The position numbers and the translations under genes are program-made. Positions 1,967 to 59,892 of a DNA stretch of 59,892 bases are shown here, one piece after another (positions within the stretch are counted from its first letter, which is position 1; the number at the start of each line of letters is the position of its first letter). This DNA comes from Candidatus Tectomicrobia bacterium (GTDB lineage Bacteria > UBA8248): NCBI GenBank assembly GCA_016192135.1, contig JACPUR010000015.1, forward strand, positions 1 to 59,892, read 5' to 3'. Below the pieces are notes generated by a model. It did no database searches. It was not told where the DNA came from and saw only the letters and a list, made by a program, of their open reading frames with translations.

Positions 1967-3079
1967 TCACCGGTCCACTTCCGCCTGCACCTCCTGGAGG
2001 AGGTACATGGAGAGGACGATGCTGGCCACCACCCCCATCAGGATGACGGAGTAGAGCTTCTGGTCGAGGAAGCCCTCCTGCAGGCCCACGCTCGCGGCGA
2101 TGATCCCGAAGGTGAGCTGGTAGTTCAGCAGGACGCCCGCGAAGTGGCCGTTCAGGCTCGTGAGCAGCCGGGTGGCCACCCGGGCGGCCAGGTATTTCAG
2201 CCCGTACACCACCGCGAACAGAAGGGCGGCGACCCCCGCCACTTTAAGATCGATGACGCGGAGGTTCATCTGCGCGCCCGCGTGGAGGAAGAAGATCGGC
2301 GCCAGCAGGCTGAAGACGATTCCGCGGAGCTTCACCTCGAGCTCCTCGTGGTCCACGGCCAGCTCGCCCAGCACCAGCCCCACCGTGAAGGCGACGATGG
2401 CGGGATGGATGCCGGCGTGCCCCGACAGGAACCCGAGGCCCAGGAGGACCATCAGGAGGAAGCGCATCTCGAACTCGACCGCGTTCCCCCGGTAGCGCCG
2501 CAGGACCCACCGGCTCAGGCGGGGAAGCCCGATGAGGGTCGGGATGACGAACGCCAGGAAGACGGCCGTCCCCCACCCCACGTTCCCCAGGGTGGCCGCG
2601 AGGAGGACCATGCTCAGCACGTCCACCACCGAGGCCGCCCCCATCAAGGTGGCGCCGCTCTGCTGGCCGAGAAGGTTCCGGTCCTTGAGGGACTGGTAGG
2701 TCAAGGCCAGCGAAGTCGTGGAGAGCCCCACCCCCATGAGCAGCGAAACCTTGGGGGGCAGGGAGAGCAGATAGTGGCAGACCGCGAAGAGCCCGGCGAC
2801 GGGGACCAGGAGGGAGGCCATGCCGATGCCCACGCTCGCCTTCCAGGTGGCGCGGATTCGGTTGACGTCCACCTCGAAGCCCGCCATGAACATCAGCGCG
2901 AGGATGCCGAAATGCGCCAGGAAGTTGAACCATTCGACGGCGATCAGCCCCTGGACGAAGAAGCCGAGCAGCATCCCCGCGAAGATCTCGGTCACGGCGC
3001 CGGAGATGCGGAACTCCAGCGCCAGCACCCCCGCCGCGATGAGGACAACGGCCACCGAGAGCGACGGATCCAGGCTCAA
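1967..3079 (-). CDS. Cation:proton antiporter, CPA2 membrane domain
   Basis: About 370 residues, almost entirely hydrophobic, with roughly 11-12 predicted membrane spans. It resembles the Kef/NapA-type Na+/H+ exchanger domain: an N-terminal half with FMAGFEVDVNRIR, a conserved acidic loop, and a later GLFVGLVLGELAVD-like region. There is no C-terminal TrkA-N/RCK domain, so it is the membrane core only. The start appears to be TTG at 3079 (TTG-AGC-CTG) behind AAGG; no ATG fits before the first membrane segment. The upstream neighbour on the other strand is an SDR gene, so 3080-3525 is a divergent intergenic region. Substrate ion is not determinable. Confidence 0.8.
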   Translation of the reverse strand: MSLDPSLSVAVVLIAAGVLALEFRISGAVTEIFAGMLLGFFVQGLIAVEWFNFLAHFGILALMFMAGFEVDVNRIRATWKASVGIGMASLLVPVAGLFAVCHYLLSLPPKVSLLMGVGLSTTSLALTYQSLKDRNLLGQQSGATLMGAASVVDVLSMVLLAATLGNVGWGTAVFLAFVIPTLIGLPRLSRWVLRRYRGNAVEFEMRFLLMVLLGLGFLSGHAGIHPAIVAFTVGLVLGELAVDHEELEVKLRGIVFSLLAPIFFLHAGAQMNLRVIDLKVAGVAALLFAVVYGLKYLAARVATRLLTSLNGHFAGVLLNYQLTFGIIAASVGLQEGFLDQKLYSVILMGVVASIVLSMYLLQEVQAEVDR

Positions 3080-3194
3080 TGGGAGCGCCTTCTCGTCGGG
3101 ACAATGAAGCCGGCCCGGGACGGATGAGCCGGATTGGCAAACGGTCGTTCATCCTAGCATTTTCGCGCCGCCCCCGCCCCCGGGGCTCCGCGTT

Positions 3195-3415: not shown

Positions 3416-3525
3416 ATATTGGCGGCGGAGGCCTCTCACGCAAACTGGTTCAGTATCCCGCGTTGACCCGCCCCCGGCCGGGGGGGAGAATCCCCCCGCG
3501 TCTTTCCCCAGCGAGGAGGCATCCC

Positions 3526-58621: not shown

Positions 58622-58801
58622 GACGACCCTCCATCCCGCTCCAGGCGGGCCAATCGCACGAAGACGGTTCTTATCGCTGAAATTGCGGCGGGGCAGGCGG
58701 AATCCCTGCTCTTTTAAATGTGAGCGGCGGATGGGGGCCGGGCAACCTCATCCGCAAAAGAGCGAAAGGGGACGCTCGCGCATCCCCTTGATTCGACATG
58801 G

Positions 58802-58846
58802 TGGCACGGGACGGAGTTGAACCGCCGACACGGGGATTTTCAGTCC
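58802..58846 (-). other. 3' half of tRNA-Phe(GAA): candidate integration (att) site
   Basis: On the minus strand 45 nt match tRNA positions 32-76 exactly in layout: end of the anticodon stem plus loop CTGAAAA (anticodon GAA), stem TCCCC, a 5-nt variable loop, T stem GGCGG/CCGTC with loop TTCAACT, acceptor strand CCGTGCC, discriminator A and encoded CCA. On the 5' side the identity ends after GGA; the expected GGGGA stem, D arm and GGCACGG acceptor are missing. The gene is not functional; it is the displaced 3' end left when an element integrates into a tRNA. Confidence 0.75.
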
Positions 58847-58903
58847 GGACGGGTGGCTAAGAAACCTCGAAATCCAGTGGGTTTTTTCGTGGGAAGAATT
58901 TTG

Positions 58904-58926
58904 TGTGCGAGTTTTTGTGCGAGTTT
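58904..58926 (+). repeat. Direct repeat TGTGCGAGTTT x2 next to the att fragment
   Basis: Two exact 11-bp copies (58904-58914 and 58916-58926) with a 12-bp period, 58 bp from the tRNA fragment and just upstream of a -10-like TATAGT (58934). They could be arm-type integrase sites or promoter-binding sites. Confidence 0.5.
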
Positions 58927-58933
58927 GGTATCC

Positions 58934-59165
58934 TATAGTGAAAGGAGGGCTGGGTCATGACCTATATCATGACAAAAATAGTGCAGCCCCTCCGTAGCCG
59001 GGCCGCCGTGTAATTCGGCAGAGTGACCATAACCCGAGAGCGAAAGCCACGGGGAAATAGCCATAAGGCCTGGCCACCGACCGGAAAAAAATAGTCGGGC
59101 GCGGGTTCCGTGGCACCTGCGTAGGGGTCAAAAGCCCTCGGAAAACCTCCGAGGGCTCAATTTTT
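58934..59165 (+). ncRNA. Candidate structured RNA or leader upstream of the HNH gene
   Basis: About 230 nt from a TATAGT -10 to an intrinsic terminator. Complementary segments: GGAGGGCTG (58944-58952) with CAGCCCCTCC (58984-58993); inside it GTCATGA (58954-58960) with TCATGAC (58967-58973); GCCG/CGGC (59005-59019); CCGAC/GTCGG (59077-59098); GCGCGGGT/ACCTGCGT (about 59099-59122), whose loop CCGTGGC (59108-59114) is a perfect complement of GCCACGG (59046-59052), a possible pseudoknot. I cannot match it to RNase P, tmRNA, SRP or 6S. It may be a stand-alone RNA or a regulatory leader. Confidence 0.55.
59133..59165 (+). terminator. Intrinsic terminator/attenuator before the HNH gene
   Basis: AGCCCTCGG (59133-59141), 7-nt loop AAAACCT, CCGAGGGCT (59149-59157), then CAA and five T (59161-59165). 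A 9-bp perfect stem. It ends only 15 nt before the HNH start codon, which is unusual for a plain terminator and suggests attenuation or a hard border of the RNA unit. Confidence 0.8.
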
Positions 59166-59180
59166 GTCAGGAGTTTTTTG

Positions 59181-59786
59181 ATGGCACAGTTTCGGTGCAT
59201 CTATTGCCTCAAAGACGAGCAAGAAGCGACACCCTCCATTTCGCACATTTTCCCGACGAGCCTTGGCGGCACGCTTGAACTAAACGATGCGGTCTGCCAG
59301 TCCTGCAATTCTCTTATAAATCGGGAAACGGAAGAGCCGTTCAGGAGGGATTGGCCATTTCTCCTGAGCCTCCTGGGCATCCGGTCTCGAAGGGAAAAGG
59401 TCCCATTAGTCCCCGCCATCCTTCATTATGAAGGGGAACGCGTCAAGGTTTACTTGAACGCTGAGGGGGAACCCAGCCATGTCCCTCCTGTCATCGAAGC
59501 GACGCAAGTTAAAAAATTTGGCCCTGGTGAAGAGGTAGAGCAATTCAAGAAAGATTATGCGGAGAAACATCCCAACGTGGTCTGGACAGGAATGGACCTC
59601 GCGAAAACATCGCCTCCTGTAAGTGAATTTCAGCTTGATTTCAGCAAGTTGTGCATGCCATACGCCCGGCGATTTGCAGCGAAAGTCGCTTTTGAGCGGC
59701 TGTGCCAGCTTAGAGACCCACATGAAATGGCAAAGCAAGACCATAATACCATTAGTGTATTCCTAGGCTTCTTCCTGAACAACTGA
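59181..59786 (+). CDS. HNH-endonuclease-like protein
   Basis: A 201-residue protein from ATG 59181 behind AGGAG (59169-59173). FRCIYCLKDEQEATPSISHIFPTSLGGTLELNDAVCQSCNSLIN has the zinc CxxC...CxxC pairs and the S-H-I-F-P-x-S-L-G-G plus N of a treble-clef HNH nuclease. The remaining 140 residues form a variable region ending VFLGFFLNN. GC content is well below the window average. It sits just inside the putative element edge, after a structured RNA. Likely DNA target or defence role is not known. Confidence 0.75.
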   Translation: MAQFRCIYCLKDEQEATPSISHIFPTSLGGTLELNDAVCQSCNSLINRETEEPFRRDWPFLLSLLGIRSRREKVPLVPAILHYEGERVKVYLNAEGEPSHVPPVIEATQVKKFGPGEEVEQFKKDYAEKHPNVVWTGMDLAKTSPPVSEFQLDFSKLCMPYARRFAAKVAFERLCQLRDPHEMAKQDHNTISVFLGFFLNN

Positions 59787-59877: not shown

Positions 59878-59892
59878 ATGACGGTCGCCGAG
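59878..59892 (+). CDS. Possible start of a further gene (first five codons)
   Basis: ATG 59878 reads MTVAE to the window edge, with GGGAGGG (59864-59870) at 7-nt spacing. Nothing else can be said. Confidence 0.35.

Follow-up and report, generated by a model that had tools for sequence, protein, structure and literature searches.

What is the role of the structured RNA-like region at positions 58934-59165 of a Candidatus Tectomicrobia contig, directly upstream of a gene for an HNH protein? The window, meaning the whole stretch of 59,892 nt analysed here, is the entire contig and ends at 59892. An initial annotation had described the region as an RNA of no known class, framed by a promoter and an intrinsic terminator, denser in complementary segments than expected by chance and potentially linked to the HNH gene. 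We tentatively favour another interpretation, namely that this stretch is an attenuating 5' leader, or alternatively a terminated small RNA, of HNH_5, the first gene inside one end of an element that integrated at a tRNA-Phe gene.

The strongest element of the region is indeed the intrinsic terminator of the initial annotation (59133-59165, plus strand). It is made of a 10-bp stem (59133-59142/59148-59157), a 5-nt loop and the T run CAATTTTT, with a folding z of -5.2 and pair probabilities of 0.81-1.0. From the T run to the start of HNH there are only about 15 nt, which are occupied by a Shine-Dalgarno sequence and leave no room for a separate promoter, so transcription of the HNH gene must pass through the terminator by read-through. 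Such an order, in which the terminator immediately precedes the gene and no promoter intervenes, favours an attenuating leader. At the other end of the region, TATAGT is present on the plus strand (58934-58939), as direct reading confirms, but the promoter that had been built on it as a -10 box was not recovered: our promoter check found no -35 partner and no recognisable sigma-70-like promoter around it. A start 6-7 nt past TATAGT would moreover land inside a Shine-Dalgarno sequence.

This Shine-Dalgarno sequence, AAAGGAGG (58941-58948, plus strand), is perfect and sits 8 nt 5' of an ATG that opens an 18-codon ORF (58957-59013, plus strand; MTYIMTKIVQPLRSRAAV followed by a stop), a possible leader peptide that was absent from the initial annotation. 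In the predicted fold the site is mostly sequestered in the first hairpin, P1, where its GGAGG is paired with a probability of about 0.9 or more; translation of the short ORF could therefore be coupled to folding. On the minus strand, a 77-aa ORF spanning the region had no match among plasmids.

All pairings listed in the initial annotation are present in the sequence. More specifically, P1 (58944-58993, plus strand), supported by direct reading, stem enumeration and folding, consists of a 9-bp stem with one bulge, GGAGGGCUG (58944-58952) with CAGCCCCUCC (58984-58993), and an inner 7-bp hairpin, GUCAUGA (58954-58960) with UCAUGAC (58967-58973). The predicted fold of the plus strand continues with helix P2 (58997-59074, GCCGGGCC/GGCCUGGC), closing a multiloop that holds a small hairpin (59005-59019), and with hairpins P3 (59077-59098) and P4 (59099-59122, loop UCCGUGGC), which together cover 59077-59122. 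The stem of P4 is formed by GCGCGGGU (59099-59106) and ACCUGCGU (59115-59122), and CCGUGGC in its loop (59108-59114) is complementary to GCCACGG (59046-59052) over 7 nt. Enumeration revealed an extra helix, AACCCG (59031-59036) with CGGGUU (59102-59107), that crosses this pairing with adjoining 3' strands, the geometry of a possible H-type pseudoknot (59031-59114, plus strand). The likeness of GCCACGG/CCGTGGC to the tRNA-Phe acceptor stem of relatives was judged to be due to chance, as no T-arm precedes CCGTGGC and ARAGORN was negative. We also observed that AAATAG occurs three times in the RNA region within A-rich segments (58974-58982, 59055-59060 and 59086-59094), each time on the 3' side of a helix.

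The strength of this folding was compared with shuffled sequences. The minimum free energy gave a z of -3.2 with the terminator included and of -1.9 without it, 10 of 300 shuffles being equally good in the latter case, and this level was matched by 9% of 85 plus-strand windows sampled on the same contig. Perfect stems of at least 7 bp numbered 4 with the terminator (1.15 expected; 2.6% of shuffles) and 2 without it (0.77 expected; 18% of shuffles), and a pseudoknot of equal total length, combining the 7-nt pairing with a coaxial partner helix, arose in 3% of shuffles. Since the excess over chance is small once the terminator is set aside, the claim that the density of complementarity exceeds chance rests mainly on the terminator, and it was not upheld for the remainder. 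Folding gives no preference for the plus strand, since the minus strand does equally well or better (z of -2.9). The RNA-like region looks fairly ordinary, with a predicted structure beyond its terminator.

Searches for relatives of the RNA were performed at several levels. Consistent with the earlier statement that the RNA belongs to no known class, neither Rfam at gathering level nor cmscan of all Rfam models up to an E-value of 10 returned a match, which also led us to reject a group I intron or another catalytic RNA represented in Rfam. BLASTN against phages, plasmids, E. coli and 386 genomes retrieved only the sequence itself, as did a covariance model run on 146 relatives and on 385 genomes related to the Abyssobacteria genome considered below; with one sequence behind it, this model is weak. 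In viral contigs, searched with exact patterns only, no homologue was detected; two 17-nt matches lacked wider similarity, both lay within an apparent single phage coding gene, and they were rejected as unrelated.

The downstream gene is an HNH_5 ORF (PF14279, E 2.3e-13; 59178-59786, plus strand) starting at ATG 59181 or TTG 59178. Its sequence is native to about 59756. From 59757 to the contig end at 59892 the sequence recurs at the ends of two other contigs, which indicates that the gene is interrupted by a repeat present in several copies, probably an insertion sequence, and has lost its C-terminal end. This truncation was overlooked in the initial annotation, and a search of the rest of the assembly did not recover the lost part of the gene. 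As HNH_5 is now truncated, any control exerted on it may be defunct. The repeat, found at the ends of three contigs, starts GTATTCCTAGGCTTCTTCC and probably carries a gene beginning MTVAE; on another contig it also cuts an ORF (2512-3105) ending KAFVVMQF, a motif that we take to recall TIR-like or deoxyribosyltransferase-like proteins.

Homologues of the HNH_5 protein are 266-378 aa long. The best one, of 344 aa with its HNH at the N-terminus, belongs to Candidatus Abyssobacteria (37% identity); its upstream sequence, in which a RelE-type toxin-antitoxin pair can be named from sequence, has neither such an RNA nor a comparable leader. The RNA is absent as well from three distant plasmid homologues, whose genes neighbour DUF262-HNH, ImmA/IrrE or AAA ATPase genes, settings in which defence genes are commonly found. 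With none of these four homologues (one good, three distant) accompanied by the RNA, a specific link between RNA and HNH protein is not supported, and to judge from the few known relatives the RNA appears not to be a conserved companion of this HNH family.

The genomic context upstream brought in a feature missed by the initial annotation. The 3' half of a tRNA-Phe(GAA) gene, from the TGAAAA anticodon loop to CCA, lies at 58799-58846 (minus strand) with no adjoining 5' half, as a putative attachment-site remnant, and is 88-94% identical to the 3' half of intact tRNA-Phe genes in family members. Matching stretches occur in 15 family relatives, and all seven that were checked are intact tRNA-Phe(GAA) genes. 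In this contig and in one genome of the same genus, the similarity starts only at GGACTGAAAATCC, without the 5' half, and no intact tRNA-Phe was seen in either assembly. The gene neighbourhoods of these two half remnants differ. After each of them comes a similar AAGGGG(G)ATGCG hairpin, and in the same-genus genome the remnant (about position 3482, reverse complement) runs across the stop codon of a gene resembling alcohol dehydrogenases. Starting at the remnant, the GC content of our contig drops from about 0.70 to 0.48-0.54, and beside it lie 12-nt direct repeats (TTTGTGTGCGAG/TTTTTGTGCGAG, 58900-58927), which from their position may be arm-type integrase binding sites. The simplest reading is that a foreign element inserted at tRNA-Phe has one of its ends here and that the RNA region is the first feature within it; we infer this integration, since the integrase and the far end of the element are absent from this contig.

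Several known systems share part of this layout. Like the HEARO/omega RNA of IscB, the RNA-like region sits in mobile DNA and immediately precedes the gene for an HNH protein; unlike it, the region has no HEARO match even at an E-value of 10, and in place of a partner with RuvC and HNH, Pfam gives only HNH_5, with no IscB-like match. The initial annotation had rightly set this system aside. Type III toxin-antitoxin loci (ToxIN, CptIN, TenpIN) similarly have an RNA, a terminator and a protein gene reached by read-through, and the possible H-type pseudoknot and the A-rich AAAUAG segments add to the likeness. However, the tandem near-identical repeats before the terminator are absent here, the only repeat being the 12-nt one upstream of the RNA; the downstream protein is HNH_5 and not of ToxN/AbiQ type, with no PADLOC or Rfam match; and a homologous HNH gene occurs without the RNA. 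Attenuated 5' leaders of amino-acid operons and antibiotic-resistance genes also combine a short ORF and its Shine-Dalgarno sequence with a folded RNA and a terminator directly before the gene. They differ from our region in that its ORF has no regulatory codon run, no convincing antiterminator or homologue was found, and the gene downstream encodes a nuclease; the likeness is one of layout only.

Based on the terminator, the short ORF with its Shine-Dalgarno sequence, the lack of room for a promoter and the element-end context, we infer a possible course of transcription, attenuation and modulation. Transcripts from an upstream start would cross the folded RNA from P1 to P4, and most would stop at the terminator; the HNH_5 gene, with its Shine-Dalgarno sequence a few bases past the terminator, would be reached by read-through only. 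Attenuation would thus keep HNH_5 expression low, and translation of the 18-codon ORF, with its ribosome site in P1, may modulate this control. A candidate antiterminator is present, as GAGGGCU (58945-58951) is perfectly complementary over 7 bp to AGCCCUC (59133-59139) of the terminator. At equilibrium this pairing has a probability near zero and lies about 9 kcal/mol above the best fold, and the terminator persisted when the leader was blocked during folding, so that no switch is evident. The lack of a leader homologue, the HNH homologue without a comparable leader and the failure to recognise a promoter likewise speak against an attenuating leader.

Three other explanations are serious rivals. 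The region could encode an independent small RNA, about 200-225 nt long, that is transcribed from a promoter of its own and acts in trans for the element, while the HNH gene just happens to lie next to it. The terminator, the multi-helix fold with its possible pseudoknot and the fact that adjacency to HNH is not kept among the homologues would suit such an RNA, but with TATAGT as the only trace of a promoter, no homologue or Rfam match, and folding barely beyond chance outside the terminator, we regard it as rather unlikely. We give similarly limited credence to ordinary intergenic DNA of the element around one real terminator, in which the other pairings would have arisen by chance in a sequence of 58% GC. 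The modest values obtained without the terminator, the equal folding of the minus strand and the lack of detected conservation speak for this explanation, and it is weakened by the agreement of several marginal signals (z, pseudoknot and a Shine-Dalgarno sequence buried in P1), though these are not independent.

It seems less probable again that the RNA is the mRNA of a very short or decayed protein gene that starts at 58957 and has the terminator as its end. The spacing of AAAGGAGG to the ATG is in favour of this reading, as is a frame that, past one stop, stays open to about 59091; yet the ORF has only 18 codons, and its read-through version had no match in plasmids or phages. Most improbable of all, in our view, is a new structured RNA of mobile elements paired with HNH_5, either as an RNA partner or as an antitoxin produced from the terminated leader in a type III-like manner without repeats.

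An RNA partner for HNH_5 nucleases, if true, would matter far more than a leader or small RNA, but the identified homologues speak against such a link being conserved. If real, the region would be a further orphan, either a leader or a small RNA, located where an integrated element ends, and it would serve mainly as a seed for family searches.
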